Assembly (NCBI RefSeq): GCF_002240055.1
Contig: NZ_CP016753.1
Location: 1,798,001 to 1,862,000 of the forward strand
Source: Leptotrichia sp. oral taxon 498
GTDB lineage: Bacteria > Fusobacteriota > Fusobacteriia > Fusobacteriales > Leptotrichiaceae
Reading direction: 5' to 3'
DNA length: 64,000 bases
The notes under the pieces were generated by a model, which did no database searches, was not told the origin of the DNA, and saw only the letters and a list, made by a program, of their open reading frames with translations. Both the position numbers and the translations under genes were made by a program. Shown one piece after another: positions 1,453 to 49,543 of the stretch. Numbering within the stretch: the stretch's first letter is position 1; the number at the start of each line of letters is the position of its first letter.

Positions 1453-1935
1453 AAAGTTTTAGATAAAAAATTGAAATAAAAAAATTATTATTAGGAATAA
1501 TGATTACAATGTGTTGCTTAAATGTAATTGTTAAAAATAATGAAGTAATTAAGTTAAAAAGACAGGGATTATTTTTTTGTATCACATATAATTTGGATAT
1601 TTAAAACAACTTTTCACCCAATAAATTTTATAAGTAAAAAAAGATGAAACAATATTGATAAGAGTGTCCAGAATTTTGTATAAACACAAAATATAATATA
1701 TGGTAGAGTGTGTAAAAATTTTTGTACAAATTCAGAATCGAAGTCAAGGCAGTCTCTTTTAGATTTCCATCAATACTCTCCAGTCCATACTCCCAAATTA
1801 ATTCTCAAAATATTTCAAATCCTCAAATTTAAAAAGAAAGCGTCACAGTGAGTTCAAACGACTTTATTTTAAATATCAAGTTATGGTATAATTAATATAT
1901 TGAAATTCAAAGAAAATAAAAGAGGGAGTGATTTT
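1453..1935 (+). other. Gene-free stretch with decayed fragments
   Basis: No intact gene is seen. Codons 1476-1604 read as a short signal-peptide-like frame (KKLLLGIMITMCC) whose first codon is ATA where ATG would be expected, suggesting a decayed small exported-protein gene. IS-end-like sequences occupy 1662-1730. A probable -10 hexamer and a GGGAGTG ribosome binding site (1924-1930) lie just before the next gene. Confidence 0.4.
1662..1730. repeat. Two IS-end-like repeats in direct orientation
   Basis: GAGTGTCCAGAATTTTGTAT begins at 1662 and GAGTGTGTAAAAATTTTTGT at 1706. The first resembles the left end and the second the inverted right end of the element at 4492-4581. Here they lie in the same orientation, so this is a scrambled or nested remnant rather than one intact small element. 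No transposase frame is visible. An IS256-type origin is my guess. Confidence 0.45.
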
Positions 1936-3600
1936 ATGAGAAAAAAAGCTGTTCCTGTGGGGATTGAAGATTTTAAAGAGTTGATACAAGATGAATATTA
2001 TTATGCAGATAAAACTTTATTAATAGACGAAATGTTAATGAATAAATCGAAAGTTACATTATTTACAAGACCACGAAGATTTGGAAAAACATTGAATATG
2101 TCGATGTTAAGATATTTTTTTGATGTAAAAGATAAAGAAGAAAATAAAAAGCTTTTTGAAAATTTAAAAATATATGATAGTGAATACATGGTTGAACAAG
2201 GGAAATATCCTGTAATTTTCATTTCAATGAAAGATTTGAAAGGAAATAGCTGGGAAGAAAATTTTATATTGATAAAAAAACATATAAAAAACTTATACAT
2301 GGAATTTTATGATTTAAAGGATAAATTGAATCCTATTTTTAAAAATGATTTTGAAAAGATAGTTATGGAAAAAGAAGATGCTGACTGGATTTATTCTCTT
2401 AAAAACTTATCAAATTATTTGTATGAATATTATGGAAAAAGTGTAATAATTTTAATAGATGAATACGATGCTCCAATAATAAATGCTTTTGATAAAGGAT
2501 ATTACAATGAAGCAATAAATTTTTTTCAAACATTTTACAGCTCAGCGTTAAAGACTAATAATTCCTTGAAATATGGTGTTTTAACAGGGATAACAAGGAT
2601 TATAAAGGAAGGAATATTCTCTGGTTTAAATAATTTAAAAGTAGATACAATATTGAATAAAAAATATTCAGAATATTTTGGACTTCTTGAAGGTGAGGTA
2701 ATTGAAATGCTTGATTACTTTGGAATGAAATACAAAATTGAAGAAGTTAAAGAATGGTATAATGGATATTTATTTGGAGAAAGTGAAGTGTACAATCCGT
2801 GGTCTATTGTAAATTATATTGACAATGGAGAAATCAAGGCATATTGGGCAAATGTTTCGGGGAATACGCTTCTAGAGAATATGCTTGATCATGCTGGGGA
2901 AAGTGTTTATGATGACTTAAAACGGTTTACTGATGGAGAAAGTATTGAAAAATATATTTCGGATGGAACTACGATAAATAGTCTTTTAAGTAACGACGAT
3001 GAGATATGGCAATTACTCTTATATAGTGGGTACTTAACAAAAGATGAAAAGCAGAAGGAAATAGATGTAACTTCAGAATATACAGATGTTTACAACTTGA
3101 GAATTCCAAATAAGGAAATACGGAAATATTTTGGGAATATGTTCTTGAACAGATTTTTTGGAACAGAAGTGAAAACAAATATTTTGATAAAAGCGCTTGA
3201 AAATGGAGATATTAAGAAATTTGAAAAGACATTGGGAGAAATAATGATAAATATGCTGAGTCATTTTGACTTGGACAAGGAAATGGAAAAGATTTATCAG
3301 GTGTTTATGATAGGGCTTGTTGGATTTTTAATGGGGAAATATGAGATTATTTCAAATGATGAAAGCGTATATGGAAGATATGACCTTGCGATGATTCCAA
3401 TAAAAAGTAATGAGAAGGCGTATCTTATGGAATTTAAAATATCGAAGACAAAAAAGGGGATGGAAGAGAGGGCACAGAAGGCGTTGAAGCAGATTGATGA
3501 GAAGAAATATGATACTAAACTAAAGGCAAGAGGGATAAAGAATATTTTGAAGATTGGGATTGCGTTTTATGGGAAAGAAGTGAAGGTTGTCTATAAATAG
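1936..3600 (+). CDS. AAA-ATPase-like protein with C-terminal PD-(D/E)XK nuclease-fold domain (copy 1)
   Basis: This 554-residue protein matches the 'AAA-ATPase-like plus DUF1703/PDDEXK_9' architecture common in Fusobacteria and Bacteroidetes. The N-terminal GIEDFKELI and FTRPRRFGKTLN (P-loop around residues 44-55) are hallmarks, LIDEYDAPI is the Walker B-like segment, and the C-terminal YGRYDLAMIP followed by YLMEFKIS supplies the nuclease-fold D...ExK residues. The ATG at 1936 is chosen because GGGAGTG lies 5 bases before it; an upstream TTG at 1900 lacks a site. The cellular role of the family is not established; a mobile or defence role is suspected. A second member lies at 47894-49543. 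Confidence 0.85.
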   Translation: MRKKAVPVGIEDFKELIQDEYYYADKTLLIDEMLMNKSKVTLFTRPRRFGKTLNMSMLRYFFDVKDKEENKKLFENLKIYDSEYMVEQGKYPVIFISMKDLKGNSWEENFILIKKHIKNLYMEFYDLKDKLNPIFKNDFEKIVMEKEDADWIYSLKNLSNYLYEYYGKSVIILIDEYDAPIINAFDKGYYNEAINFFQTFYSSALKTNNSLKYGVLTGITRIIKEGIFSGLNNLKVDTILNKKYSEYFGLLEGEVIEMLDYFGMKYKIEEVKEWYNGYLFGESEVYNPWSIVNYIDNGEIKAYWANVSGNTLLENMLDHAGESVYDDLKRFTDGESIEKYISDGTTINSLLSNDDEIWQLLLYSGYLTKDEKQKEIDVTSEYTDVYNLRIPNKEIRKYFGNMFLNRFFGTEVKTNILIKALENGDIKKFEKTLGEIMINMLSHFDLDKEMEKIYQVFMIGLVGFLMGKYEIISNDESVYGRYDLAMIPIKSNEKAYLMEFKISKTKKGMEERAQKALKQIDEKKYDTKLKARGIKNILKIGIAFYGKEVKVVYK

Positions 3601-8985: not shown

Positions 8986-11694
8986 ATGTCATATATTTAT
9001 GATGTTTTTCAAAATTATAATAGTGAAAATTTGAAAATAGGGAAAAAGGCTGAAAATTTAGTGAAATTGACAAAGAATGGCTTTAATGTTCCATATTTTT
9101 TGGTTATAACGAATGAATATTTTAAAAAAGTAATTTTAAAAGAAATAAGAAAAAAAATTGATGTAGAAAATTGGAATGATATTTTTGAAAGTAATGAAAC
9201 TCAAAATATAGAAATTATAAGGAATATTATAGAAAATCATACAATTCAAAATAATTTTATCGAAGAATTACAAAAATTTTTAAAAGATGATAAATATTAC
9301 GCAGTTCGTTCATCATCAATTGAGGAAGATAGTGAGAATTTTTCATTTGCAGGTCAATTTGAAACATTTTTATACATAAAAAAAGAAGAAATGCTGAATA
9401 AAATAAAGAAAGTTTGGATTTCTTCATTTTCAAATCATGTAATGAAATATAGAAAAGAAGGTAATATTAATAATGAAATAAATGTTCCAGCAGTAATTAT
9501 TCAGGAAATGGTAAATTCTGAAAAATCTGGCGTAGCTTTTAGTGCAAATCCAATTAATAATAATAAAAATGAAGTTGTGTTATCTTGTGTTTTCGGATTG
9601 GGGACCAGCATCGTTGACGGTGATGAAGATGGAGATTTGTATATTGTGAATAAAAACCTTGAGTTAGTGAGTAAAGAGATTAAAATAAAAACATTGAAGC
9701 AAAGTTTAGATTTTGAGAAAAAAAGTATAAAGAGAGAAAAAATTCATGAGGAAAAAGAAGTTTTGAATGAAAAGGAGATACGAGAACTTGTTCAAAATAT
9801 TATAAATATTGAAAAAGTGTATGGTGTTCCACAAGATATAGAGTGGGCTTTTGAAAATAAAAAATTGTATATTTTACAAGCAAGACCGATTACAACTTTT
9901 GAGAACAGAACTGAAAAGAAAAAGAATAGTGAAAAACTAATTGAAGAAAATATTATTATTTGGGATAATAGCAATATTGTGGAAAGTTATCCCGAAATTA
10001 CTTTACCCTTGACTTTTAGTTTTATAAAAAATGCGTATGCAGGAGTATATAAGCAATTTTCCAAAGTTGTCGGAATTTCAAAAAAGATAATGGATAGCTA
10101 TGAGCCGATTTATGCAAATATGTTAGGAATTTTAAATGGAAGAGTTTATTATAACCTTATAAATTGGTATAAACTTTTACTTTTATTGCCTAATTCCAAA
10201 AGAAATAGCGGTTTTATGGAGCAGATGATGGGAGTAAAACAAAAGCTTTCTGGAATAAATTTAGAAGAAAATTTTTTGGAAGCAACTAAAAATATGAATT
10301 TTTTTGAAAAAAAAGTCATAGGATTAAAAAAGGCGAGAGCTGGATTCTCAATTTTTTTTAATATGTTTTCCATCGAGAAAAAAGCGAAGAGATTTTGTCA
10401 GATTATAGATCAAACATTGAGTTCAAAAGAATATAATCTATCTAGGATGGATATTACTGAATTACAAAAATACTATATTTTGCTTGAAAATAAATTTTTG
10501 AAAAATTGGAAAACACCTTTAATAAATGATTTTTTGGTCATGATATGGTTTGGTATTTCAAAAAAAATAATAAAAAAATTTATAAAAAATGATGCTGAAG
10601 AAATTCACAATATACTTATTGCACAAAAAGGTGAAAATATGATAAGTGTTGAACCATCTAAATACATGGAAAAATTAAGCGAAATCATTAAAAAAGATAC
10701 TTCATTACAAGAAGAAATAAAAAATATTATAAAAAATAAAACTGATATTATTACAAGTAACTTGGAATTTAATAAATTGCTGAATGAATATTTGGAAAAA
10801 TTTGGAGATAGAACAGTTCATGAATTAAAACTGGAATCTCTGACTTTGCGAGAAAATCCAATATATTTATTTAGAATGTTATATTCTCTTGCGTTAAAAA
10901 AAGAAAAAAATACACATGAAAAAAGAGATATTTCTTTGGAGCAAAAAAAAATTTATGAAAATCTTAAAATTGGGATAGTAAAAAAAATGATATTGAAAAA
11001 ATCAATTTCAAATGCTAAAAAATTTATTAAAATAAGAGAAAATTTGAGATATGAAAGAACGAAAGCTTACGGAATTATAAGAAAAGTATTCAGGCAAATA
11101 GGAATTCATATGAAAGACAGCAATATTATTGAAAATGAGAGAGATATATTTTATTTAACTATAAACGAAATTTTTGGATTGATTGATGCGTCTGCTATTG
11201 ATACGAATTTAAAAGAAATAGTAAAAATTAGAAAGAGAAAATATGAGCATTATAAAATAATCCCTGCACTTCCTGACAGATTTTTGACTAAAGGGTTTAT
11301 TTCTGAAGAATTTTATTATGAGAATTTGATAACGGAAACAAATAAAAATAAAAATTTTAATGAACTAACGGGAACTGCTTGTAGCAAAGGAATTGTTAAA
11401 GGAATTGTTAAAGTGGTTTTAAATCCTATGGAAACTGAAGTTGAAGAAGGAGATATAGTGATAACAAAATCTACTGATCCAAGCTGGGTAATGGTATTTC
11501 CTTTATTAAAGGGACTTATTGTGGAAAAGGGAAGCTTACTTTCCCACAGTGCAATTATTTCAAGGGAAATGAATATACCCGCCATCGTTGGAGTTCAAAA
11601 TGCAACAACTATTTTAAAAACAGGAGATTATGTAGAATTTGATGGTAGTACAGGAATTATAAAAAAAATTGATTCGAAATTGGAAAAGGAGTAA
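8986..11694 (+). CDS. PEP synthase/rifampin-phosphotransferase-like PEP-utilising enzyme
   Basis: This 902-residue protein has the three-part plan of PEP-utilising enzymes: an N-terminal ATP-grasp/pyruvate-phosphate-dikinase domain (IGKKAENLVKL at the start, YAVRSSSIEEDS near 105, GIEW-like DIEWAF near 285), a long Lys-rich middle, and a C-terminal swivelling His domain with SLLSHSAIISRE; the phosphocarrier His is residue 854. The family moves phosphate from ATP via His to a substrate or to pyruvate. Length and layout are closer to rifampin phosphotransferase-like proteins than to true PEP synthase. It opens a six-gene lipid-like operon, so an alcohol or small-molecule kinase role is plausible; the substrate is unknown. 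GAAAGGAAG precedes the ATG. Confidence 0.8.
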   Translation: MSYIYDVFQNYNSENLKIGKKAENLVKLTKNGFNVPYFLVITNEYFKKVILKEIRKKIDVENWNDIFESNETQNIEIIRNIIENHTIQNNFIEELQKFLKDDKYYAVRSSSIEEDSENFSFAGQFETFLYIKKEEMLNKIKKVWISSFSNHVMKYRKEGNINNEINVPAVIIQEMVNSEKSGVAFSANPINNNKNEVVLSCVFGLGTSIVDGDEDGDLYIVNKNLELVSKEIKIKTLKQSLDFEKKSIKREKIHEEKEVLNEKEIRELVQNIINIEKVYGVPQDIEWAFENKKLYILQARPITTFENRTEKKKNSEKLIEENIIIWDNSNIVESYPEITLPLTFSFIKNAYAGVYKQFSKVVGISKKIMDSYEPIYANMLGILNGRVYYNLINWYKLLLLLPNSKRNSGFMEQMMGVKQKLSGINLEENFLEATKNMNFFEKKVIGLKKARAGFSIFFNMFSIEKKAKRFCQIIDQTLSSKEYNLSRMDITELQKYYILLENKFLKNWKTPLINDFLVMIWFGISKKIIKKFIKNDAEEIHNILIAQKGENMISVEPSKYMEKLSEIIKKDTSLQEEIKNIIKNKTDIITSNLEFNKLLNEYLEKFGDRTVHELKLESLTLRENPIYLFRMLYSLALKKEKNTHEKRDISLEQKKIYENLKIGIVKKMILKKSISNAKKFIKIRENLRYERTKAYGIIRKVFRQIGIHMKDSNIIENERDIFYLTINEIFGLIDASAIDTNLKEIVKIRKRKYEHYKIIPALPDRFLTKGFISEEFYYENLITETNKNKNFNELTGTACSKGIVKGIVKVVLNPMETEVEEGDIVITKSTDPSWVMVFPLLKGLIVEKGSLLSHSAIISREMNIPAIVGVQNATTILKTGDYVEFDGSTGIIKKIDSKLEKE

Positions 11695-11701
11695 TTTTTT
11701 T

Positions 11702-12841
11702 ATGAAAAGTGAAGTTAAAGAGAATAAGGTTGATTTTTCAATAATAAGATATTCACAATGTTGGGAAGATACTGAAATATTATTGGAAGCGCTGGATATA
11801 AATGAAAATGATATTTGTCTTGGAATTGCTTCCGCTGGAGATAATATATTTTCAATGCTTTCCAAAAATCCTAAAAAAGTGATTGCGATTGATTTAAGTC
11901 TTCCACAATTATATCTTTTGGAATTAAAAAGAGAGATAATAAGAAAATTTGATTATCAAGAAATGATTTTGTTTTTTGGAGTTATATCAAAAGATAACAA
12001 TAAAAATACAAAAAAAATTAGAAAAGAAATGTATGAAGAAATAAGAAAAAATCTTCAAGAAAAAACTAAAGAGTATTGGGACTATAATATTGAAATTATT
12101 GGAAGAGGAATTAATCATACAGGGAAATTAGAGAAGTTTTTTAGAATTTTTAATCATAAAATTCTGCCATTCATTCATAGTAAAAAAACAATAAATAAGT
12201 TTTTTGAAAAAAAGTCATTGGAAGAAAGAAAAAAATTTTATGATAAAAAATGGGAAAATTTTAGATGGAAATTAACTTTTAGAATATTTTTTTCAAATTT
12301 AGTTATTGGAAAACTTGGAAGAGATAAAGAGTTTTTTAAATATGTGGAAAAGGATATTGCAACAACAATGTTATCACAAATAAAATATGCTTCTACTGAA
12401 TTGGATCCACACGAAAATCCGTACATAAATTATTTTTTAACTCAAAATTATCGTTTAGATTCATTACCATATTTTTTAACTGAAGAAAATTTTGGAAAAA
12501 TAAAATCAAATTTGAATAAATTGGAAATAGTTTGTGATACACTTGAAGAATATTTAGAAAAAATTGATTTTAAAATAGATAAATTTAATTTGAGCGATAT
12601 TTTTGAATATATGTCTGTTGAAAACTATGCGAAATTAATGGAAATAATTTATAAAAACTGTTCAGATAATGCCTTATTAGCATATTGGAATTTAGTTGTG
12701 AAGAGAAATTCTGAAATGGAGGAGTTGAAAAATCAATTTTCAAAGAGATTCAAGAGATTGAAAGAAATAGATCAAGAACTTCATAAAAGAGATAAAACAT
12801 TTTTTTATACAGATTTTGTTATTGAAAGGGTGATAAAATGA
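11702..12841 (+). CDS. BtaA-like S-adenosylmethionine 3-amino-3-carboxypropyl transferase (DUF3419)
   Basis: This 379-residue protein has the DUF3419/BtaA hallmarks: an N-terminal YSQCWEDTEILLEAL, an AdoMet site in LGIASAGDNIFSML followed by VIAIDLSLPQLYLLELK, and a C-terminal FEYMSVENYA and LLAYWNLVV. Known BtaA moves the aminocarboxypropyl group of AdoMet to diacylglycerol in betaine-lipid synthesis. No BtaB N-methyltransferase is next to it, so the product may be unmethylated or the acceptor different. ATG 11702 is chosen because GGAG (11689-11692) lies 9 bases ahead; an upstream in-frame codon at 11669 lies inside the previous gene. The stop overlaps the next start (ATGA). Confidence 0.85.
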   Translation: MKSEVKENKVDFSIIRYSQCWEDTEILLEALDINENDICLGIASAGDNIFSMLSKNPKKVIAIDLSLPQLYLLELKREIIRKFDYQEMILFFGVISKDNNKNTKKIRKEMYEEIRKNLQEKTKEYWDYNIEIIGRGINHTGKLEKFFRIFNHKILPFIHSKKTINKFFEKKSLEERKKFYDKKWENFRWKLTFRIFFSNLVIGKLGRDKEFFKYVEKDIATTMLSQIKYASTELDPHENPYINYFLTQNYRLDSLPYFLTEENFGKIKSNLNKLEIVCDTLEEYLEKIDFKIDKFNLSDIFEYMSVENYAKLMEIIYKNCSDNALLAYWNLVVKRNSEMEELKNQFSKRFKRLKEIDQELHKRDKTFFYTDFVIERVIK

Positions 12842-14187
12842 AAATAATGCCTTATGAAATATTTCTAATTATGGCAATTATAGTAATGTTTCTCGTTTTC
12901 TTTTTTGTTTTAAACAAACTTGAGAAAGCAAAAAAATTTGATTCAGAATTAAATAGAAAGATTTTACATATAGGAACAGGAATTTGCGGAGTTTCACTTC
13001 CCTTTTTATTTAAAACTAAAATTTCTGTAATAATTTTAGTGCTATGTTTTTTTGCTATTATAGCAATAGTGAGAAATCTTAAAAACACAGGAGCAAAAGA
13101 TGTCCTTGAAACAAAAAGCAGAAAAACATGGGGAGATGTTTATTTCGTATCAACTCTCGCTTTTTTGTGGATATTTTCTAGTGATGATAAAATAATGTAT
13201 TGTTTACCAATTGTAATTTTAATGTTTTCGGATGCTTTTGCAGCGCTGATAGGTAAATTTTATGGAAAGTATAAATATGATACAGGTTTTGGAACAAAAT
13301 CTTTAGAAGGGTCAATAATCTTTTTTCTATCAACATATATTTTATGCAGCAATTTTTTTCTTCTTTTTAGTGACATAAAAAATATGAATATTGTATTAAT
13401 TTCGCTGCTTATTAGTACTTTAACGATGATTATAGAAGCAATTTCATGGAACGGCTTAGATAACTTTTTTATTCCGCTGTATGTCTACCTTTTTTTGAGA
13501 TTAAACCTTCAGAAAGATACAGTTGATTTGGTAAATCGCTTAATTTTAATATTAGGATTGTTAACAATAGTTTACCTTAACAGAAAAAAAACTACACTGA
13601 CAAATGTCGCTCAAGTTGGAAGTCTCTTTTTTATGTATGTCGTTACTGTATTAGGAGGATTTTCTTTTCTTTTACCACCTTTAATGTTATATGTAAGTTA
13701 TTACCATTACACCCCAAAAGTTAAAAGACAGGAAAAAGATTCTTTAAAAGGTCTTCTCACTATTGGATTCCTGGCATTTTTTTGGATTATTGTTGGAATT
13801 CTCTTAGAGAGAAAATCAATTTTGAATATTTATATTTATATTTTTTCATTATATTTTGGAATTATAAATATAATAAGATACAATGCTTCACATTTGACGG
13901 AATTAACTGGAAATAAATTAAATAAAAAGCTTATTTTTATCAGTATAATAAAGGCATTGCTATTTTTTATAATAAATTATGCGATTTTATTAAAATCTAT
14001 AGATTTAAAAATAATTTTAGAAAATATTGTATTTTTAATTGCAGGAATATTATTGTATACAATTTTTATTGATAAAATACCAAAAAATTTTTTTAAAAAT
14101 AGTCATGGTGGAGAAAAAAAAGTATTTTTTACAACAATAATAGTTTTTATTTGCAGTCTATTACTCTTGATAATAGAATATATTTAG
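12838..14187 (+). CDS. Dolichol-kinase/phosphatidate-cytidylyltransferase-like membrane protein
   Basis: This 449-residue protein has about 12 hydrophobic helices. The N-terminal half carries ELNRKILHIGTG, MFSDAFAALIGKFYGK and FGTKSLEGS, the pattern of the polyprenol/phytol/dolichol kinase and CDP-diglyceride synthase superfamily, which uses CTP to phosphorylate an isoprenoid alcohol or to activate phosphatidate. The C-terminal half is a further membrane domain of unknown role, making it about twice the usual length of the kinase. It is translationally coupled to the BtaA-like gene by an ATGA overlap. Whether it acts on an isoprenoid (suggested by the UbiA-like neighbour) or on phosphatidate is open. 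Confidence 0.75.
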   Translation: MKIMPYEIFLIMAIIVMFLVFFFVLNKLEKAKKFDSELNRKILHIGTGICGVSLPFLFKTKISVIILVLCFFAIIAIVRNLKNTGAKDVLETKSRKTWGDVYFVSTLAFLWIFSSDDKIMYCLPIVILMFSDAFAALIGKFYGKYKYDTGFGTKSLEGSIIFFLSTYILCSNFFLLFSDIKNMNIVLISLLISTLTMIIEAISWNGLDNFFIPLYVYLFLRLNLQKDTVDLVNRLILILGLLTIVYLNRKKTTLTNVAQVGSLFFMYVVTVLGGFSFLLPPLMLYVSYYHYTPKVKRQEKDSLKGLLTIGFLAFFWIIVGILLERKSILNIYIYIFSLYFGIINIIRYNASHLTELTGNKLNKKLIFISIIKALLFFIINYAILLKSIDLKIILENIVFLIAGILLYTIFIDKIPKNFFKNSHGGEKKVFFTTIIVFICSLLLLIIEYI

Positions 14188-14224
14188 ATCAATAAAGTAA
14201 TTTTTATAAAAAGGAGTGATAATT

Positions 14225-15238
14225 TTGAAAATAGAAAGATATAATTTCTTAAAAAAGAATGAAATACTTAAAATTATCGAAAACAATGAATTTTTAGAAT
14301 CAGAAAAAGAAAAAATATTGATGGAAAGACCTTCTGAAATTGTCAGATTCTATGATGAAAACAAAAATATTATTTCAAGTATGTACCTTTGGAATGATGT
14401 GCCAGATTATAAAAGCAAAAAAACCTTATATATTGGAAATATAAAAACTTTTCAATTACAAAAAAATTTGAATAAGATAGACATTCTTTTTAAAAAATTA
14501 TTTGAAATTTTAAAAGGAGAAGGATTTCAGATAATAATAGGCCCTTTAAATGGCACTACTTGGAATAGATATAGATATGTTGTAGAAAAAGGAGATAGAG
14601 AACCTTTTTTTATGGAACCGTGGAATGAAGATGAAGAAGTAAAATTCATAGAATATATAGGATTTTCTCCATTTAAATATTATTTTTCTTCAATTATGGA
14701 AAATACTGAAAATAGAAAAACTTTGAAGGAAAAAATAGAGAAAATAAAAAAATTTCCATTTTATAAAAAAATTTCTATAAAAAATGCAGATACTAAAAAC
14801 TTTGAAAAACTCTTTAGTAAAATATATGATATTTCCATAGAATCATTTAAAAATAATTTTTTATACACAAAACTCGAAAAAAATATTTTTATGAAAATGT
14901 ATTCAAAATATAAAAAAAAATTTTTATCAAATTTTTTCAAACTTCTATATTTTGAAAAAAGATTAATTGGTTTTGCATTCGCCTTTCCTGATTATTTAGA
15001 GATAGAAAGAGCAGGTAAAACTGAAACTATAATTTTTAAAACAGGAGGAGTCATACCAGAATTTAATGGAAAAGGATTGGGATATATATTATTAGATGCG
15101 ATAATTGATGAAGTTGAAAAGTCAAAATACAATAAACTTATTTTAGCTTTGACCTTTAAATCAAATGTTTCCAAAAATATGGCAGAACATGTAGCAAAGC
15201 CTTTTAGGAAATACGCATTATTTATAAAGGAATTATAA
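14225..15238 (+). CDS. GNAT-like acyltransferase of unknown substrate
   Basis: A 337-residue protein. The middle has IIIGPLNGTTWNRYR and FFMEPWNEDE, and the C-terminus has TGGVIPEFNGKGLGYILLD, which reads like the acetyl-CoA pyrophosphate loop of GNAT acyltransferases. ALTFKSNVSKNMAEHV follows, as in GNAT helix 4. The start is TTG 14225 because AAGGAG (14211-14216) stands 8 bases before it; the in-frame GTG at 14216 sits on that site. Context in a lipid-like operon suggests N- or O-acylation of an amino-group-bearing intermediate, which is inference. Confidence 0.6.
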   Translation: MKIERYNFLKKNEILKIIENNEFLESEKEKILMERPSEIVRFYDENKNIISSMYLWNDVPDYKSKKTLYIGNIKTFQLQKNLNKIDILFKKLFEILKGEGFQIIIGPLNGTTWNRYRYVVEKGDREPFFMEPWNEDEEVKFIEYIGFSPFKYYFSSIMENTENRKTLKEKIEKIKKFPFYKKISIKNADTKNFEKLFSKIYDISIESFKNNFLYTKLEKNIFMKMYSKYKKKFLSNFFKLLYFEKRLIGFAFAFPDYLEIERAGKTETIIFKTGGVIPEFNGKGLGYILLDAIIDEVEKSKYNKLILALTFKSNVSKNMAEHVAKPFRKYALFIKEL

Positions 15239-15251
15239 ATAAAAATTAAGA

Positions 15252-15293
15252 AAGGAGCTGTATAGAAAAATTATATAAATCTATATAATTTTT
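15252..15293 (+). promoter_or_regulatory. Hairpin separating a ribosome binding site from the ligase start
   Basis: AAAGGAG is at 15251-15257, but the ligase ATG is at 15315, far beyond normal spacing. Between them is a perfect 12-base stem (15266-15277 with 15282-15293, loop AATC). Folding it would bring the site nearer to the start. It could be a translational switch or a remnant insertion; no other good site lies close to 15315. Confidence 0.45.
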
Positions 15294-15314
15294 ATACAAA
15301 ATAGACAAAATAGT

Positions 15315-16886
15315 ATGAAGATAGATAATATGACAATTATTGACAAAATAAGGGAAGTTAAAAGTAAATTTCCCAATAAAACAGCAATAATTGACTTAAA
15401 AAATAACACAGAAGCAACTTTCTCACAAATTGACACTCAGTCGGAAGCTGTCTATAATTATTTAAAAAAAAATAATTTTTCTAAAGGAGATAAAGTTGTT
15501 CTTTTTGTTCCGATTAGCTTAAAATTTTATATAATTTTAATTGGAATATTAAAAATGGGAATGCAAGTTGTATTTATTGACCCTTATGCAAAAATAAACC
15601 ATATAAATAAATGTTGTGAAATGATTTCTCCAAATGCGATAATAGGTTCAAAAAAAGTATTATTTTTAGGAAATTTTTTAAAAGAAATTAGAAAAATTCC
15701 AATTAAGATTGATTACAAAAATATTTTAAAAGATTCTAAATATCACGAAATTTCAGATGATTACGAAATCTCAAAAGATACACCAGCATTAATCAGTTTT
15801 ACAAGCGGAAGTACAGGATTTCCCAAAATAATAATGAGAACACACGGATTTTTGCTAGGTCAGCACAATGTTCTGGATAAAAATATTCAGTTTTCAGAAA
15901 ATACACAGGCGTATTCTTCATTTCCTATGTTTTTATTATCGCATATATGTACAGGAACTACCACTTTGATACCAGATATAAATTTTGGGAAGCCAATAAA
16001 AACTGATGTTAAAAGTGTTGTTAAACAGATAGAATCTAAAAATATTGAGAACATAATTTTACCGCCATCAATTTTAGAAAATATTGTAAGATTTTCTAAA
16101 AAGAATAATATTAAACTTGATTGCGTTCAAAGAGTTTTTACTGGAGGAGCACCTGTTTTTCCAAAGCTGATGTATAATTTATTAGAAATTTTTCCAAAAA
16201 GTAAAGTTCGTGCATTATACGGAGCCTCAGAAGTAGAACCAATCTCAATATTTAATTTTGAAACTATTACAAAAAAACAAATAGAGTCTATGAAAAATGG
16301 AGCTGGGCTATTTGTCGGAAAAAAAGTTGATCAAATTGATTTGAAAATAGAAAGATTAGAATTGGAAGAGAATTTAAAACTAAATGAAAAAAATTTAAAG
16401 AAATATTCCAAAAGTGATTTTGAAAAAATACAGCAAATATTGAAAAAATCAGCAGGAGAAATACTTGTCAAAGGAGAAAATGTCTTAAAAAACTATCTTA
16501 ATGTGAAAAGTGATCCAAATAAAGAATGGCACGAAACAGGGGATATGGGATATATTAATGAAAATAATGAATTATTTCTTTTAGGCAGAGCAAAGGGAAG
16601 AGTGAAGATAAAAAATAGCATTTATTATCCACTTTCGATTGAAACAGCTTTTTCTTTTTGCAAAGAAGTAAAAAAATGTGCTTTAATATCTAAAAATGAA
16701 GAGCTGTATATGATTATAGAAAAAGAAGATGATTACACGAGAACTATCTTGGAAAATAAAGAAATAAAAAAATTGTGCGAAAAATTTAATATTTCTCAAG
16801 TGATTGAAAAGAAAATTCCTTTAGATAAAAGGCACAATAGTAAAATAGACTACAATAAATTAGAAAAGCTAATAGAAAAATTATAA
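15315..16886 (+). CDS. AMP-dependent acyl ligase (OleC-like)
   Basis: This 523-residue adenylate-forming enzyme has the P-loop FTSGSTGFPK at about residues 161-170, GGAPVFPKLM and ALYGASEVEPIS in the middle, and HETGDMGYI with LLGRAKGRVKI at the C-terminus. The family activates a carboxylic acid as its AMP ester. The VFTGGAPVFP..YGASE wording is closest in my memory to OleC-type fatty-acid/beta-lactone ligases, with no OleA, OleB or OleD here. In this operon it most likely activates a fatty acid for the GNAT-like partner or for a CoA/ACP acceptor. The start at 15315 has no close ribosome site (see the hairpin entry). Confidence 0.85.
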   Translation: MKIDNMTIIDKIREVKSKFPNKTAIIDLKNNTEATFSQIDTQSEAVYNYLKKNNFSKGDKVVLFVPISLKFYIILIGILKMGMQVVFIDPYAKINHINKCCEMISPNAIIGSKKVLFLGNFLKEIRKIPIKIDYKNILKDSKYHEISDDYEISKDTPALISFTSGSTGFPKIIMRTHGFLLGQHNVLDKNIQFSENTQAYSSFPMFLLSHICTGTTTLIPDINFGKPIKTDVKSVVKQIESKNIENIILPPSILENIVRFSKKNNIKLDCVQRVFTGGAPVFPKLMYNLLEIFPKSKVRALYGASEVEPISIFNFETITKKQIESMKNGAGLFVGKKVDQIDLKIERLELEENLKLNEKNLKKYSKSDFEKIQQILKKSAGEILVKGENVLKNYLNVKSDPNKEWHETGDMGYINENNELFLLGRAKGRVKIKNSIYYPLSIETAFSFCKEVKKCALISKNEELYMIIEKEDDYTRTILENKEIKKLCEKFNISQVIEKKIPLDKRHNSKIDYNKLEKLIEKL

Positions 16887-16947
16887 ATTTTTTAAGCTAA
16901 AAAATTATGAGTTTAATTTTAAAAATATCTATGAAAGGTAAAAACTG

Positions 16948-17961
16948 GTGAAAATTATGGATAAAAAACTACCAAGAAAATCCAAAAGTAAAATTAAAAA
17001 TTTTAAAATATATCTAGATGAAAGATTTCCATTAGTGAAAAACGGAATTTTTATTTTAGTTTTTACATTATCAGCATTCTTTTTCAGTAGAGTTTCAAAT
17101 AAAGATTTTAAAATGTTTATTTTCAGTAGCGCTGAAATTTTTAATAATGTAATTCTGCTTTTTATTATAATGTTTTGCTTTTTTTTTCAGTTAAGAATAT
17201 TAGACGAATTTAAAGATTTTGAGGAAGATTCAAAATATCGTTCATATAGACCAGTTCCAAGAGGAATCATAAGTTTAGAAGAGCTAAAAAAGATAGGAAT
17301 AGGGACGGTGATAATACAAGTATTACTGATTTTACTTATTGATGTGAGATTAATCTTTTTTGCGCTATTAATTTGGGGATATATGTTTTTGATGACAAAA
17401 GAATTTTTTGTAAAAGAATGGATTACAAAAAAAATTTTTCTATATGCGTTATCGCACATTGTTGTAATGCTCTTATTTGTATTATTCGTTATTTCTACTG
17501 AAAAATATTCTTTTTCTGTTCAAAGGCAAGCACATTCGTCAGCGATTTTTTCACTATTTTTCGTGAGCTATATAAATGGAATTATTTTAGAAATAGGGAG
17601 AAAAACTAGAAAATCATCAGAAGAAGAATATGGAGTCGAAACTTACAGTAAAATATTAGGAAGAGAGAGGGCGGTTCTAACATTAATAATTTTATTCGCA
17701 ATAGAAATTATATTTATTTATTTAGGATTACATGAGAATTATTATGCGGGATTAAATAATGCTTTTGGAAAAAAATATTTTTTTACAGGAATAATTTTAT
17801 TATTGTTAATATTTTGTGTATCAATTTTTCAATTAAGGAAATTTATAAAAGAAGATTTAACAGGAAAAATTGTAGAAAACATATCGGGAATATGGATTAT
17901 GTTTTCATACCTTTGCATGGGATTCCTGCAATACATTATATTTTTTAATTTTTTGAAATAA
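16948..17961 (+). CDS. UbiA-like prenyltransferase family membrane protein
   Basis: This 337-residue protein has about eight hydrophobic helices. The first Asp-rich motif appears as ILDEFKDFEED followed by YRPVPRGIISLEEL, exactly where UbiA-family enzymes carry NDxxDxxxD and the R-P-RG loop. The second motif position has EIGRKTRKSSEEEYGVETYS. Family members attach isoprenyl chains to aromatic or lipid acceptors in the membrane. GTG 16948 is kept because GAAAGG (16933-16938) is 9 bases before it; ATG 16957 is a possible alternative. It ends the six-gene operon. The acceptor is unknown; no aromatic-acid synthesis gene is nearby. Confidence 0.8.
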   Translation: MKIMDKKLPRKSKSKIKNFKIYLDERFPLVKNGIFILVFTLSAFFFSRVSNKDFKMFIFSSAEIFNNVILLFIIMFCFFFQLRILDEFKDFEEDSKYRSYRPVPRGIISLEELKKIGIGTVIIQVLLILLIDVRLIFFALLIWGYMFLMTKEFFVKEWITKKIFLYALSHIVVMLLFVLFVISTEKYSFSVQRQAHSSAIFSLFFVSYINGIILEIGRKTRKSSEEEYGVETYSKILGRERAVLTLIILFAIEIIFIYLGLHENYYAGLNNAFGKKYFFTGIILLLLIFCVSIFQLRKFIKEDLTGKIVENISGIWIMFSYLCMGFLQYIIFFNFLK

Positions 17962-31162: not shown

Positions 31163-34100
31163 ATGAGTATACTTTTGCAAAAAGATGATCTGAATTTAAA
31201 AAATGAAAGTCAAAAAATTGTAGAAATTAAAGATTATGAAGAAAAATTAAAATTTGAGTTAATTGAGTATTTCTCAAAAGAAATTTCTTTTTTAATAAAA
31301 GATGGCAGCTATCAAGATGCTATAGATTTTGTTCAAAATAGACTAAATACTCGTTTTGAAATTCCGTTAAAACAAAAAGAAAAAGATATAACAGGAAATT
31401 TAAACGAGCTTATTTTAAATGAAAAAACAAAATTTAAAAATTTTTTTATATATTTAAAAAATGAATTATTAAATTGCAAAAAGTTTTATTTTATCGTGAG
31501 TTTTATAAGATATTCAGGACTTCAAATACTTTTGAGCACATTGGACGAACTTGAAAAAAAAGGAATCAAAGGTGAAATTATAACTTCTGTTTATTTAAAT
31601 ATAACAGATTCAAAATCATTAAAAAAACTTCTCAGTTATAAAAATATAAAAGTAAAAATTTATAATAATTCAAGCGAGAGTTTTCATACAAAAGCGTATT
31701 TATTTAAAAAAAATAAATATCATACTTGCATAATAGGTTCTTCAAATATAAGCCAAAGCGCTTTGTATTCTGCAGAAGAATGGAATGTTAAACTTACAGA
31801 AAGTAATTTTTTTGAAATTTATAAAAAATCAATTTCACAATTTAAAAATCTTTGGAATAGCGACAAAGCCATTGAACTCAGTGAAGATTTTATTTTTGAG
31901 TATGAAAATTATAAAAATAATTTGAAACTTCAAAAAACTTTTGATTATATAAAAATAAAAAATAATAAAAATCATTTTGAACCGAATAGTATGCAAAAAG
32001 AAATTTTGGAAAAGCTAAAAAATACTAGAAAATCAGGGAATAAAAAAGGACTTGTGGTTGCTGCGACTGGAACTGGGAAAACGTATCTTGCAGCGATGGA
32101 TATAAAAATTTTTTTTGAAAAGAAGGAAAAGAAGTTTTTGTTTTTAGCACATAGAGAAGAACTTTTGGAAAATGCGATTTTAGTTTGTAAAAAGATTATG
32201 AAAATTGGAGAAAATAAGATTGGAAGAATTTTTGGAGGGAGAAAAGAAACTGAGAAAAAAATTATTTTTGCAACTGTGCAATCACTTCAAAATAATTATC
32301 TTGAATTTTCTAAAGATTATTTTGACTATATTGTAATTGATGAATTTCATCACTCAAGTGCCAAAAGTTACACCAAAATTCTAAACTATTTTAATCCAAA
32401 ATTTCTTCTGGGCCTTACTGCAACACCTGAAAGAATGGACGGAAAAGATATTTTAGAACTTTGTGATTATAATTTAGTTGGCGAAATGGGTTTGAAACGA
32501 GCAATGGAACAGGATTTGATTGCACCTTTTCACTATTTTGGAATAAATGACGAAACATTTGATTATGAGAAAATTCCTTATAAAAACGGAAAATATCAGA
32601 AAGATATTTTAGTTAAAAATCTGTCAAATAATAAAAGAGTCGATTATATAATTGAGAGCATTAAAAAAATCGGATTTGATGGCGAAAAGATGAGCTGTAT
32701 TGCTTTTTGTGAAAATATCAATCATGCTAGTTTTATGAATGAAAATTTTAATAAAAACGGATATATCTCGAAAGTATTGACTTCAAAAACTTCAAAATTT
32801 GAAAGAGAAAAGATTTTAGAAGATTTTAAAAATAAAAAATCTGAAATTTTGTGTGTTGTAGATATTTTAAACGAAGGAATTGATATTCCAAATATAAATT
32901 TGCTTTTATTTTTAAGACCAACTTTTTCTTCCACAATTTTTACGCAACAAATTGGACGAGGACTTAGAAAATGTGAAAATAAAGATTTTGTGACAATTAT
33001 AGATTTTATTGGAAATCACAAAAAAGACTATATCATTGCAAAATTTTTTTACGAAGAAATGTTAAACAATAAAAATATTTTGTACAGCAAAAAAGAGAAA
33101 TTGATAAAAGAAATAAAAACTAATTTTGAAAATATACCAATGGCATCATATGTCGAACTGGATAGAATTTGTCAAGAACGAATAATTAATAAAATAGAAA
33201 AAATCAATTTTAATTCCAAAATAATGTTAAAGGAAGCATATGACAGCTTTAAAAATGAAATTGGAAAAAATGATGATGAAATTTTAGAAATTTTAGATTT
33301 TGATAGAAATATTGAATTATTTATCGAGTTAAGTTCAAAATACGGTTCTTTTTACATAGCACAAAAAAACTTAGAAAGTAATTCAATTGATGAATTAAAT
33401 TTTTCAAATATCGAATTTTTATCATATTTAGAAAAAAAATTAACTTTAGTTGAGCCGTTTACTTATTTAATTATGGATTTATTTTTAGATAAAGATAAAA
33501 AAATTAAAAATATTACGGAAAACGATATTTTGAAAAAATATAAAAATTATTTTAATATTTTGGAATTTAAAAATACTTATTTAATAAAGCGAATTTTAAA
33601 AGAATTACTAGAAGATGAAATTTTGGATTTTGAATCAAATTCTGAATTTAAAAATAATAAAAACTATAAAATTTCTAAAAAATATAAAAATAATTTTTTT
33701 AAAGATAAAAATTTTTTGAAAAGATTAAAACAGCTCATAATTTTAGGTTTGTCGGAATTTAAAAATAATGATATTAGTCAATTTAATGAAAATATATTAA
33801 TAAATTACAAGGAATATAAACGAATTGAGTTACAGATTTTGTTGGACTCAAAAGTTCCAAAAGGAAGCTGGAGAGCTGGATATGCAAATACTGAAAAAGA
33901 TATTTGCCTTTTTGTAACTTACGACAAATCTCATATTTTACAAGAAAATTTAAAATATGATAATTCGCTGCATTCAGATGACATAATTCAATGGATAAGC
34001 CAACCCAAAACTTACCACACCTCAAGTGTCGGCCAAATGTTTATAAAACACAGGGAAAAAGGTATAAAAGTTCATATTTTTGTAAGAAAATTTGCATTTT

Positions 34101-34240
34101 TGGACAATAAAAAGACAAACCCATTTATTTATCTAGGAAACGCGAATTATTACAAAAGTTATGGCGACAAGCCAATGACAATACTTTGGAAACTAAAAAA
34201 TAAAATTCCTTTTGAAATAATTAAAGATGTGGTCATATAA
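31163..34240 (+). CDS. PLD-domain SF2 helicase with C-terminal DUF3427
   Basis: This 1025-residue protein carries, in order: a phospholipase-D-type nuclease domain (HTKAYLF at about 175-181 and IGSSNISQSAL at about 191-201, the HxK...N pattern), a superfamily 2 helicase core (AATGTGKTYLAA near 300, VIDEFHHSSA as DEAH-like box, LGLTATPERMDG, and TQQIGRGLRK as motif VI), and a C-terminal DUF3427-type domain with WRAGYANTEKD and HSDDIIQWISQ. Such proteins are widespread but poorly studied; repair and anti-phage roles have both been considered. It ends at a perfect bidirectional hairpin. Confidence 0.85.
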   Translation: MSILLQKDDLNLKNESQKIVEIKDYEEKLKFELIEYFSKEISFLIKDGSYQDAIDFVQNRLNTRFEIPLKQKEKDITGNLNELILNEKTKFKNFFIYLKNELLNCKKFYFIVSFIRYSGLQILLSTLDELEKKGIKGEIITSVYLNITDSKSLKKLLSYKNIKVKIYNNSSESFHTKAYLFKKNKYHTCIIGSSNISQSALYSAEEWNVKLTESNFFEIYKKSISQFKNLWNSDKAIELSEDFIFEYENYKNNLKLQKTFDYIKIKNNKNHFEPNSMQKEILEKLKNTRKSGNKKGLVVAATGTGKTYLAAMDIKIFFEKKEKKFLFLAHREELLENAILVCKKIMKIGENKIGRIFGGRKETEKKIIFATVQSLQNNYLEFSKDYFDYIVIDEFHHSSAKSYTKILNYFNPKFLLGLTATPERMDGKDILELCDYNLVGEMGLKRAMEQDLIAPFHYFGINDETFDYEKIPYKNGKYQKDILVKNLSNNKRVDYIIESIKKIGFDGEKMSCIAFCENINHASFMNENFNKNGYISKVLTSKTSKFEREKILEDFKNKKSEILCVVDILNEGIDIPNINLLLFLRPTFSSTIFTQQIGRGLRKCENKDFVTIIDFIGNHKKDYIIAKFFYEEMLNNKNILYSKKEKLIKEIKTNFENIPMASYVELDRICQERIINKIEKINFNSKIMLKEAYDSFKNEIGKNDDEILEILDFDRNIELFIELSSKYGSFYIAQKNLESNSIDELNFSNIEFLSYLEKKLTLVEPFTYLIMDLFLDKDKKIKNITENDILKKYKNYFNILEFKNTYLIKRILKELLEDEILDFESNSEFKNNKNYKISKKYKNNFFKDKNFLKRLKQLIILGLSEFKNNDISQFNENILINYKEYKRIELQILLDSKVPKGSWRAGYANTEKDICLFVTYDKSHILQENLKYDNSLHSDDIIQWISQPKTYHTSSVGQMFIKHREKGIKVHIFVRKFAFLDNKKTNPFIYLGNANYYKSYGDKPMTILWKLKNKIPFEIIKDVVI

Positions 34241-47893: not shown

Positions 47894-49543
47894 TTAGTTT
47901 TTCACAACTTTATATTTCACTTTAACTCTTTTTCCAAAAAATGCCATTCCAATATATACAATTTCTTTTACTCCACATTCCCTTAATAAAACAGGATATT
48001 TTTTATTTTCAATTTGACTCAATGCTTCTTCTGCTCTTTCTTCAAGTTCTTCTTCAGTTTTAGCCACTTTAAATTCAAATATATATTCAACATCTCTTTT
48101 ATTTATCGGATTTAAAGCTAAATCATTTCTACCATAGCCAGTTTCATTATTTGATAAAACTGTGTACTCATTATCAAGATACAACATCATTCCTAAAATA
48201 AAAGTATGATATGGTTTTTCTGTTTTAGAAGTATCGTGATAACTCATTGACACTAAAAATATTTCATTTAAAAGTTCTTCAAATCTGTCAAAATCGAATT
48301 TTTTAAATGCTTTTATCATTTCTCTAAATCTGCTAAAACCTCCTAAATTTTGAACAAACATATCTTTAAAAAATGTTTTAACTTCGTAATTTGGCAATTT
48401 CAAAGCATATTCATTCATAGCGATTTTTTCTTCAACAGTCAAATACCCTCCAAAAAGTAATAACTGCCATACTTCTTGCGGATCTTTCAATCTATCCATA
48501 TTCGATGAAGCCATTATCATTTGCTCTGTTGTCCCATTGTTGAATAAATTTTTTAATTCGTCAAATAAATCTTTATCAGCATTGTCTATTGCTGTATGGA
48601 TAAGTCTGTTATCTGATGTATTTATCCAGTAAACATTTATTTCTTTTTCATCGAGATAGTTAATTATACTCCACGGATTATAAATTTGAATATTCCCAAA
48701 CTTATAGCCGTTATACCATTTTCTCACTTTTTCAATATTTTGCTCTAATCCATAATATTCCAAAGCATTTTTCACTTCTGTTTCAATCAATCCAAAACTT
48801 TCCGCATATTTATTATTCAAAACTGTATAAGTTTTCAAATTATTCAAGCCAGAAAAAATCCCTTCCTTTGCTACCCTGAGTATTCCAGTCACAACAGCAA
48901 ACTGTAAATATTCATTATCTTTCAATGTATTTGAATAAAAACTTTTAAAAAATCTTCGTGACTTTTCATAATATCCTTCGTTCCAAGCACTTGTCATTGG
49001 AGTGTCATACTCATCTATTAAAATTATGACTTTTTTCCCGTAATATTCATATAAATATCTTGATAAAGTCTTTAATGAATTTTCCCAATCTGCATTATCC
49101 TTATCTTTAACAATGCTTAAAAAATCTTCCAAATCAAATTCATCCAATTTCTCTTTAATATATTGAAATTGTTTATACAATGATTTTACAAGATTCTTAG
49201 TATTAAAAAAACTATTCTCCCAATTTTCTGCCTCGGCATTTCTCAGGCTTATAAGAATCACAGGATTTTGTCCTTGATTTTCCATATACTCACTTTTTGA
49301 AATATACAAATTTTCAAATAATTTTCTATTTTCCTCTGCATTTTTCACATCAAAAAAATATTTTAACATCGACAAATTTAGAGTTTTTCCAAATCTTCTG
49401 GGCCTTGTAAAAAGTTTAACTTTTGATAAGTCTTCCAGCAAATCTTCTATGAACTTTGTTTTATCGACATAATATCCGTTTTCTTGTATAATCTCCTTAA
49501 AATCAGAATTTCCAATTGCTAGTCCTTTTTTCTTTTTTTTCAT
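47894..49543 (-). CDS. AAA-ATPase-like protein with C-terminal PD-(D/E)XK nuclease-fold domain (copy 2)
   Basis: This 549-residue protein is the same architecture as the gene at 1936-3600: AIGNSDFKEIIQENGYYVDK, FTRPRRFGKTLNLSML (P-loop region), ILIDEYDTPM, KWYNGYKFG, and the C-terminal YGRNDLALNP with YIFEFKVAKT as nuclease-fold residues. It follows, 67 bases on, the PLD-AAA+ gene and ends at a terminator. Overall it resembles copy 1 clearly but not closely (roughly 40-50% by eye), so the two are not a recent duplication. Confidence 0.85.
   Translation of the reverse strand: MKKKKKGLAIGNSDFKEIIQENGYYVDKTKFIEDLLEDLSKVKLFTRPRRFGKTLNLSMLKYFFDVKNAEENRKLFENLYISKSEYMENQGQNPVILISLRNAEAENWENSFFNTKNLVKSLYKQFQYIKEKLDEFDLEDFLSIVKDKDNADWENSLKTLSRYLYEYYGKKVIILIDEYDTPMTSAWNEGYYEKSRRFFKSFYSNTLKDNEYLQFAVVTGILRVAKEGIFSGLNNLKTYTVLNNKYAESFGLIETEVKNALEYYGLEQNIEKVRKWYNGYKFGNIQIYNPWSIINYLDEKEINVYWINTSDNRLIHTAIDNADKDLFDELKNLFNNGTTEQMIMASSNMDRLKDPQEVWQLLLFGGYLTVEEKIAMNEYALKLPNYEVKTFFKDMFVQNLGGFSRFREMIKAFKKFDFDRFEELLNEIFLVSMSYHDTSKTEKPYHTFILGMMLYLDNEYTVLSNNETGYGRNDLALNPINKRDVEYIFEFKVAKTEEELEERAEEALSQIENKKYPVLLRECGVKEIVYIGMAFFGKRVKVKYKVVKN

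Follow-up and report, generated by a model that had tools for sequence, protein, structure and literature searches.

What do six adjacent genes in the genome of Leptotrichia sp. oral taxon 498 make together, and do they form a functional unit in the first place? Positions 8986-17961 of the analyzed stretch (the window, 64,000 nucleotides) hold six open reading frames, all on the + strand, just as an earlier note on this DNA had described them (Table 1). That note had also placed overlaps or short gaps between the genes. Genes 2 and 3 do share 4 bases, and the gaps after gene 3 measure 28, 76, and 61 bases, but genes 1 and 2 do not overlap. The start of gene 2 is the ATG at 11702 and not the TTG at 11669, with the same methionine beginning the protein in 13 of 13 aligned relatives, and the two genes therefore lie 7 bases apart, so that the gaps range from 7 to 76 bases. 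A single promoter at the front with none in between, as had been suggested, is not borne out: the scan returned 89 sites compared with 79.7 ± 8.9 in shuffled sequences, and the sole perfect (12/12) promoter-like site, at 15430-15458, falls inside gene 5. Overall, the promoter and terminator scan of the operon was uninformative, and an Rfam search around it gave no match.

Table 1. Features of the six-gene locus, in positions of the window
Feature	Coordinates	Strand	Length (aa)	Basis or remarks
Gene 1, PEP-synthase-like phosphotransferase	8986..11694	+	902	ATP-binding, middle, and C-terminal phosphohistidine domains
Codon of predicted phosphorylated His854, gene 1 (LLSHSAII)	11545..11547	+		Conserved motif; residue number from the translation
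Gene 2, DUF3419/BtaA-like aminocarboxypropyl transferase (predicted)	11702..12841	+	379	DUF3419 profile; clade separate from canonical BtaA
Gene 3, polytopic membrane protein	12838..14187	+		N-terminal half similar to CTP-dependent kinases of lipid alcohols; C-terminal half not always present
Gene 4, GNAT-family acyltransferase	14216..15238	+	340	Acetyltransf_1; N-terminal domain with GPLNGTTW..YR
Gene 5, AMP-forming acid ligase, PRK09274/OleC-related group	15315..16886	+	523	AMP-binding
Gene 6, UbiA-family intramembrane prenyl/alkyl transferase	16948..17961	+	337	UbiA

The distribution of the genes answers the second part of the question. DUF3419, the family of gene 2, scores over the cut-off in 14 of 98 Fusobacteriota, a patchy spread, and all 14 of these genomes carry all six genes. 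In each of the 13 besides that of the window the six lie side by side, with protein identities of 32-64% and despite differing genomic surroundings; the window neighbors (gltX, a 164-aa ORF, a HisJ-like gene, and an SDR gene) do not occur near the operon in any of these relatives. Beyond this phylum, the set spans about sixteen phyla, including Cyanobacteriota, Planctomycetota, Acidobacteriota, Gemmatimonadota, and Deinococcota as well as Fusobacteriota, and the exact six-gene operon also lies on a plasmid of Roseinatronobacter (Rhodobacterales). Among 43 fully flanked loci of other phyla, picked by DUF3419 alone, the PEP-synthase gene is present in 42, UbiA in 41, GNAT in 38, the AMP ligase in 36, and gene 3 in 31, and 27 loci keep all six. 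The borders of the operon are sharp in loci L055, L058, and L079. Locus L085 carries DUF3419 alone, and five divergent or partial loci (L081, L087, L092, L103, and L111) are left out of the core claim. Each of the six families is large and common, which could point to an accidental adjacency of unrelated housekeeping genes; contiguity in 13 diverged relatives, together with the 27 complete loci in other phyla, refutes this explanation, and we regard its probability as negligible. The six-gene arrangement is far beyond chance. Co-occurrence was the check that the earlier note had proposed, and it came out strongly in favor of a single functional unit, as the genes clearly do not separate in relatives.

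Gene 2 offers the most direct link to a known lipid pathway. It matches DUF3419 (PF11899) at 2.3e-67 in Pfam, and in alignment it retains the CWED and SAGxN motifs of canonical BtaA. The betaine-lipid pathway (BtaA and BtaB) likewise has a DUF3419 enzyme, with the predicted role of transferring the aminocarboxypropyl group from S-adenosylmethionine, and the shared motifs would be consistent with a homoserine- or betaine-lipid variant in which gene 2 makes diacylglyceryl-homoserine and the role of the other genes is confined to trimming or supplying the diacylglycerol. We consider this variant very unlikely. In a DUF3419 tree, 80 cluster proteins are split from 29 canonical BtaA proteins of Pseudomonadota by a fully supported, very long branch; the single mixed row, L166, is identical to L107, being the cluster protein of Methylomonas itself. 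The 1.5 kb flanks of the 29 canonical BtaA genes contain none of the other five operon genes. Pfam and NCBIfam searches detected no methyltransferase among the six operon genes, leaving a betaine-lipid pathway without the expected BtaB within those six. The operon thus differs from that pathway in its separate DUF3419 clade, in having no N-methyltransferase among the six, and in its five to six extra enzymes, and the first two of these features agree with the earlier view that this is not a betaine-lipid operon.

A seventh gene, encoding a member of the HMG-CoA_red family, lies directly upstream of the UbiA gene in 41 loci, two of them from Fusobacteriota. It is present in 26 of the 43 fully flanked loci of other phyla, and all seven genes occur in 21. 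Both this gene and the spread far beyond Fusobacteriota were missing from the earlier note. The relatives' copies keep the HMGR fold family and the catalytic Glu, Lys, Asp, and His. Glu takes the place of human Ser684 in all legible copies, none of which has a Lys at the Lys735 site, and Phe stands at the Leu862 position in every copy checked. According to the report on FcrA (PMC11948995), the Ser684, salt-bridge Lys, and Leu862 positions are those that distinguish FcrA from HMGR, and FcrA reduces acyl-CoA of at least C14, with straight chains preferred, to the alcohol and does not reduce HMG-CoA. The paper prints Lys795, but we take human Lys735 to be the lysine of the salt bridge. Judged by these residues, the operon-linked homolog is most likely an FcrA-type fatty acyl-CoA reductase. 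Like the FcrA that serves wax-ester synthesis in haloarchaea and in bacteria, as far as PMC11948995 describes that system, the operon homolog combines the catalytic residues with three pocket changes and has an AMP ligase nearby, as FcrA has FadD; unlike that system, the operon adds UbiA, DUF3419, the phosphohistidine enzyme, and the lipid-kinase-like protein, and the window copy lacks FcrA.

A role for the seventh gene in the mevalonate pathway was rejected on the basis of the FcrA-type residues, of HMG-CoA synthase searches that found none in 30 carrier genomes outside Fusobacteriota and none in two genus-g9 genomes, and of the MEP enzyme DXR, which is present in 28 of 30 genomes tested. The window genome has no FcrA-type gene, and the one HMGR that it encodes is class II and belongs to its mevalonate pathway. 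That enzyme is unsupported as a stand-in for FcrA, as it has no FcrA signature and also occurs in three Leptotrichia without the operon. Because several other carriers lack FcrA altogether as well, the operon can do without a fatty-alcohol step of its own.

Searches of Pfam and NCBIfam gave no significant match for gene 3 of the window, and the label "dolichol-kinase-like" given to it by the earlier note therefore derives from its motifs only. The D..A..G, K..EG, and E...DN..P motifs, which we take to be marks of the dolichol/phytol-kinase family, are kept across phyla in the alignment, and 50 homologs share invariant R40, K41, H44, G99, D132, A136, G139, K154, G158, G206, D208, N209, and P213. 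One of these 50 shows a CTP_transf_1 match (0.011). The AF2 model of gene 3 has a pLDDT of 94, and Foldseek with two models, one of them high-confidence, identified no solved structural relative. The N-terminal half matches the DUF92 profile weakly across the D..A..G region, and in 8 of the 50 homologs the DUF92 matches stop after the first 44-120 of the 251 positions in the profile. The C-terminal half, which is absent in L055, L079, L083, and L103, was considered as a VTE6/DUF92 second kinase and rejected, given the missing DUF92 catalytic motifs and the partial profile coverage. Such a kinase would have given an alkyl diphosphate for UbiA.

Gene 6 has a UbiA match of 3.9e-12 in Pfam. Its first acidic motif, DExxDxxxD (residues 86-94), and the motif ExGRKxR...EE..GV.TYS are kept across phyla, and its best solved relative, at a weak 5.4e-4, is digeranylgeranylglyceryl phosphate synthase, a prenyltransferase of ether-lipid synthesis, which favors a lipid product. 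A lipid-alcohol kinase-like protein beside a UbiA transferase is reminiscent of plant phytol salvage and tocopherol synthesis, in which VTE5 and then VTE6 act in series ahead of a UbiA enzyme (PMC9515888). That order, the DUF92 alignment through the D..A..G motif, and the intact UbiA motifs would all suit a salvage and transfer of prenyl alcohols in which a polyprenol or an alcohol resembling phytol is the substrate of gene 3, UbiA transfers the prenyl chain, and the ligase and FcrA-type reductase recycle isoprenoid acids to alcohols. We find this doubtful, however. The operon showed no second kinase (VTE6/DUF92), and most carrier genomes also lack a DUF92 gene elsewhere, with only 5 of 24 positive; the characterized FcrA favors straight acyl-CoA of at least C14 (PMC11948995); and DUF3419 has no part in such salvage. 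Relative to the plant pathway, the operon also adds the ligase, the reductase, DUF3419, GNAT, and the phosphotransferase.

The remaining three enzymes bear on whether the product is a lipid or a small molecule. A Pfam search of gene 1 gave only PPDK_N (2e-63, residues 18-316) and the PEP-utilizers His domain (1e-23, residues 820-890), with no C-terminal PEP/pyruvate-binding barrel, and its 703 bits do not reach the cut-off of 883 for the PEP synthase equivalog. The nearest solved structures are those of rifampin phosphotransferase (5hv2, 5fbs, and 5hv1), and the order of ATP-binding, middle, and C-terminal His domain is that of the group of rifampin phosphotransferase RPH and the prodigiosin ligase PigC. 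The catalytic-His motif VExGslLSHsAIxxRE is kept across phyla in 38 near-full-length homologs. Despite the shared architecture, gene 1 falls far under both curated cut-offs, with 305 bits on the RPH model (cut-off 999) and 309 on the PigC model (cut-off 1300), and its gene neighborhood differs. Gene 5 matches AMP-binding at 2.8e-37 and keeps the TSGSTG and DxRHNxK motifs across phyla; it scores 317 bits on NF006754, under the cut-off, and 189 and 160 bits on two OleC models (cut-offs 850 and 900), which is short of the level for an OleC equivalog. Gene 4 has an Acetyltransf_1 match of 4.6e-5, above the cut-off; 13 sequences of it were aligned, and some of its residues are invariant across phyla.

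These families could also build a diffusible or pigment-like secondary metabolite, a small molecule carrying acyl, prenyl, and aminocarboxypropyl groups. Gene 1 would then be an ATP-dependent ligase like PigC and would have no part in membrane-lipid synthesis. The scores of gene 1 on the PigC and RPH models, the frequency of AMP ligases, GNAT proteins, and UbiA proteins in natural-product clusters, and the patchy spread with a plasmid copy are consistent with this alternative, which we judge to be credible although unlikely. In the relatives' loci, carrier proteins, transporters, regulators, and tailoring oxidases are not conserved with the operon, and about sixteen phyla keep the set, including its two membrane enzymes and a reductase that forms fatty alcohols, which suits a lipid better.

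Taken together, the gene families, their linkage, and the FcrA-type residues lead us to conclude that the operon most likely makes an alkyl aminolipid. Specifically, we estimate at roughly 0.55 the probability that a conserved operon for lipid biosynthesis has these six genes as its core and yields an aminocarboxypropyl-bearing (homoserine-type) alkyl lipid unlike betaine lipids. The earlier note had favored a lipid-directed pathway, and the finding that the FcrA-type reductase, UbiA, the lipid-kinase-like protein, and the AMP ligase travel together lends support to it. The families, catalytic motifs, cross-phyla linkage, and FcrA-type residues are direct observations, from which we propose the substrates, order of steps, and product. 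Gene 5 would activate a long-chain acid, and the FcrA-type reductase, operon-encoded in most carriers, would turn the acyl-CoA into a fatty alcohol; for the Leptotrichia copy, which has no FcrA-type gene, the alcohol would come from elsewhere. Gene 3 may phosphorylate a lipid alcohol, gene 1 may phosphorylate or activate an intermediate, and gene 6 would join a prenyl or alkyl chain to a membrane acceptor. Gene 2 would transfer the aminocarboxypropyl group of S-adenosylmethionine, and gene 4 would acylate an amine or hydroxyl.

Several points count against this scheme, among them the missing FcrA-type gene of the window genome and of other carriers, and the lack of a family match or solved fold relative for gene 3. 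UbiA enzymes normally use allylic diphosphates, and no clear alkyl-diphosphate-making enzyme is present among the operon genes. Sets of a phosphotransferase and a ligase are also known from small-molecule pathways such as that of prodigiosin. A more specific proposal, that fatty alcohols made from fatty acids and activated through phosphorylation by genes 3 and 1 feed a UbiA enzyme joining a non-isoprenoid alkyl chain, to yield a new membrane-lipid class of alkyl-ether lipids with an aminocarboxypropyl head and an acyl group, is speculative and rather improbable.

The earlier note knew of no described system with this gene set, and we likewise found no earlier description in the open-access literature searched. 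The gene system is new as a set, while its individual parts all belong to known enzyme families or resemble them. The Ebo operon (eboA-F; PMC5133447) likewise counts six genes, is widespread in bacteria, includes a protein of the UbiA family, and has an unknown, isoprenoid-linked product; its other five families differ, however, and gene 6 reaches just 15.2 bits with the EboC model, where the cut-off is 250, and is not of the EboC type. Lipocone and Ebo were both rejected as matches for the operon, as the two papers describe other systems.

If a new lipid is made, it would account for some of the lipids that are still unassigned in many environmental bacteria and provide a genetic marker for them, HMGR-derived fatty acyl-CoA reductases would have a second role, and aminocarboxypropyl transfer would have a new acceptor. 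DUF3419 should not be read as betaine-lipid potential, nor a lone bacterial HMGR as a mevalonate pathway. Kept over about sixteen phyla and on a plasmid, the set should serve something generally useful. In the record of the Roseinatronobacter plasmid, two of the operon proteins are annotated as "hypothetical" and one as a DUF.

The same gene set recurs across bacterial phyla. A single scan of the gene 2 alignment against ≈85,000 species genomes returned 288 relatives, and the best 80 of these 288 loci, in which the set appears repeatedly, were retained and searched with profiles of all six genes. Linkage was counted in the 43 non-Leptotrichia loci among these 80 that have sufficient flanking DNA: the PEP-synthase-like gene (PPS, gene 1) is present in 42 and UbiA in 41, followed by GNAT (38), the AMP ligase (36), and gene 3 (31), with all six genes in 27. 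A DUF3419 gene above the cut-off occurs in 14 of 98 Fusobacteriota genomes, and the six genes are adjacent in every one of these 14, the window counted. Together with the 27 of 43 loci, this bears out the conserved co-occurrence of the six families expected from the earlier note, which had read the operon from sequence as building an unusual lipid or isoprenoid. We no longer hold to its single promoter at the front: promoter-like sites are about as frequent in shuffled DNA, and the sole perfect site lies within gene 5.

The carriers span about sixteen phyla, Fusobacteriota counted, the others being Cyanobacteriota (including Melainabacteria), Planctomycetota, Verrucomicrobiota, Acidobacteriota, Gemmatimonadota, Chloroflexota, Pseudomonadota, Bacteroidota, Rhodothermota, Deinococcota, Bacillota, Thermodesulfobacteriota, Actinomycetota, Latescibacterota, and Rokuibacteriota. 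The commonest order is UbiA-PPS-DUF3419-gene 3-GNAT-AMP ligase or a rotation beginning GNAT-AMP ligase; UbiA is at the end in Leptotrichia and at the front, preceded by a further gene, in the two genomes of a second Leptotrichiaceae genus, g9. Several loci have the six-gene block flanked by opposite-strand genes or long gaps. Exactly these six genes, overlapping and in the usual order, also lie on a 137 kb plasmid of Roseinatronobacter sp. S2, where the two proteins annotated "hypothetical" are gene 3 (1e-74) and GNAT (4e-68). Among the Fusobacteriota relatives, the six proteins share 32-64% identity, and the genes that flank the operon in the window are all absent from its vicinity.

Features of the window and of homologous loci in other genomes (L handles), with positions in the sequence named
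Feature	Sequence	Positions	Strand	Description
Operon	window	8986-17961	+	six genes, all on the plus strand
Gene 1	window			902 aa; ATP-binding and mobile His domain of PEP synthases
Gene 2	window	ATG 11702		DUF3419; start by alignment
Gene 3	window			membrane protein
Gene 4	window			GNAT
Gene 5	window			AMP ligase
Gene 6	window			UbiA protein
AAA-ATPase_like + PDDEXK_9 protein	window	1900-3600	+	first of two within 64 kb
AAA-ATPase_like + PDDEXK_9 protein	window	47894-49543	-	second of the two
1025-aa protein	window	31163-34240	+	PLD-like, ResIII helicase, and DUF3427 domains
Conserved ~133-aa protein	L015 and relatives	13192-13590 (L015)		between AMP ligase and UbiA genes; most other Leptotrichiaceae copies, not the window
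HMGR	L060	13557-15743		reading frame interrupted by an X; continues into DAGK_cat/YegS_C lipid kinase
Verrucomicrobiota variant genes	L053	4622-9266		comparable content in L091, L094, L098
Two small membrane-protein genes	L089	4516-5957		before UbiA; cyanobacterial
Two small membrane-protein genes	L090	3143-4654		before UbiA; cyanobacterial
ORFs	L113	4462-5931		size similar to the L089/L090 genes
2OG-Fe dioxygenase (PF10014) + HpcH/HpaI aldolase	L106	7960-9575		Calothrix sp. PCC 7716; just upstream of DUF3419

In a tree of 80 cluster DUF3419 proteins and 29 canonical proteins from Pseudomonadota, a long, fully supported branch splits the two groups; the one seeming exception is a Methylomonas cluster protein that was counted twice. 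Because of this split, and because none of the other five genes lies within 1.5 kb of the canonical DUF3419 genes, the cluster proteins form a distinct subfamily. Diacylglycerol should not be assumed to be the acceptor of this putative transferase. The dioxygenase and aldolase of the Calothrix locus possibly tailor the amino-acid part.

The domain search did not find the C-terminal PEP/pyruvate barrel in gene 1, and profile searches of the window protein found no family match for gene 3. A model of gene 3 from a 50-sequence alignment reached a pLDDT of 94, and Foldseek found no solved relative for it. All invariant residues lie in the N-terminal half, which aligns to the DUF92 kinase family via the D..A..G region; the motifs, which we take to be those of dolichol, phytol, and diacylglycerol CTP kinases, give a lead only. 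The C-terminal half is variable and absent in some Chloroflexota and others; that it is a second kinase was tested and rejected. The operon of L060, a locus without gene 3, has a diacylglycerol-kinase domain instead, which fits a lipid-kinase role and possibly reflects the substitution of one lipid kinase by another.

When the other genes of the loci were grouped, one recurrent partner emerged, a homolog of HMG-CoA reductase (HMGR; Pfam match 5e-117) directly upstream of UbiA. This seventh gene is present in 41 loci, the two g9 Fusobacteriota among them; of the 43 non-Leptotrichia loci with sufficient flanks, 26 have it and 21 have all seven genes. The reading of it as a mevalonate-pathway enzyme was rejected. 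A search of 30 non-Fusobacteriota carrier genomes, with positive controls, recovered no HMG-CoA synthase, and DXR of the MEP pathway is present in 28 of 30 genomes tested (27 of those carriers, the two g9 genomes, and the window's genome), the exceptions being one Chloroflexota genome and the window's own, which has the mevalonate pathway. The seventh gene retains the four catalytic residues of HMGR but has Glu where the human enzyme has Ser684, no longer has Lys735, and carries Phe in place of Leu862. FcrA, an HMGR homolog for which the same changes are reported (Lys795 as printed there is taken here as the salt-bridge lysine 735), has been demonstrated to reduce long-chain acyl-CoA to fatty alcohol while sparing HMG-CoA (PMC11948995); the passages of that paper covered here make no mention of the six-gene operon. 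Because some other carriers have the six genes without the seventh (e.g. loci L055, L058, and L110 and the plasmid copy), it is accessory to the six-gene core. It was not found in Leptotrichia, and the sole HMGR of the window's genome (one contig, 2.15 Mb) is a class II enzyme that pairs with HMG-CoA synthase and occurs in Leptotrichia species lacking the operon as well. The isoprenoid route varies within Leptotrichiaceae: in the two g9 genomes DXR is present, HMG-CoA synthase was searched for without a hit, and the seventh gene is the only HMGR.

By family and motif, the established parts are a ligase of the kind that activates acids, in most carriers a predicted acyl-CoA reductase, a member of the aminocarboxypropyl-transferase family, an acyltransferase, a phosphohistidine phosphotransferase with its His motif intact, and a UbiA enzyme whose acidic motifs are preserved. 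In their simplest assembly, a lipid chain would pass from acid to acyl-CoA, alcohol, and phosphate and be joined by UbiA chemistry, and the product lipid would bear an aminocarboxypropyl and an acyl group; we favor this reading slightly, at roughly 55%. The order of steps, the donor used by UbiA, and what genes 1 and 3 do are inferred. That UbiA forms an ether from a fatty-alkyl chain seems unlikely. Within the open-access literature the gene set was not found described, and a prior description elsewhere is possible; of the four papers there in which DUF3419 appears, none deals with a bacterial operon.

Some loci carry further genes. The one small membrane-protein gene tested at the cyanobacterial loci (L089 4516-5550) had no Pfam match. 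In some Verrucomicrobiota, neither gene 3 nor the FcrA-type seventh gene is present, and the operon instead has a class III aminotransferase fusion, an additional PPS-like gene, and a gene resembling SnoaL. The long C-terminal region of the fusion looks like an acyl-ACP reductase, which hints that an alkylamine may stand in for the alcohol in related pathways, and the Verrucomicrobiota variant may be a form of the pathway based on fatty amines.
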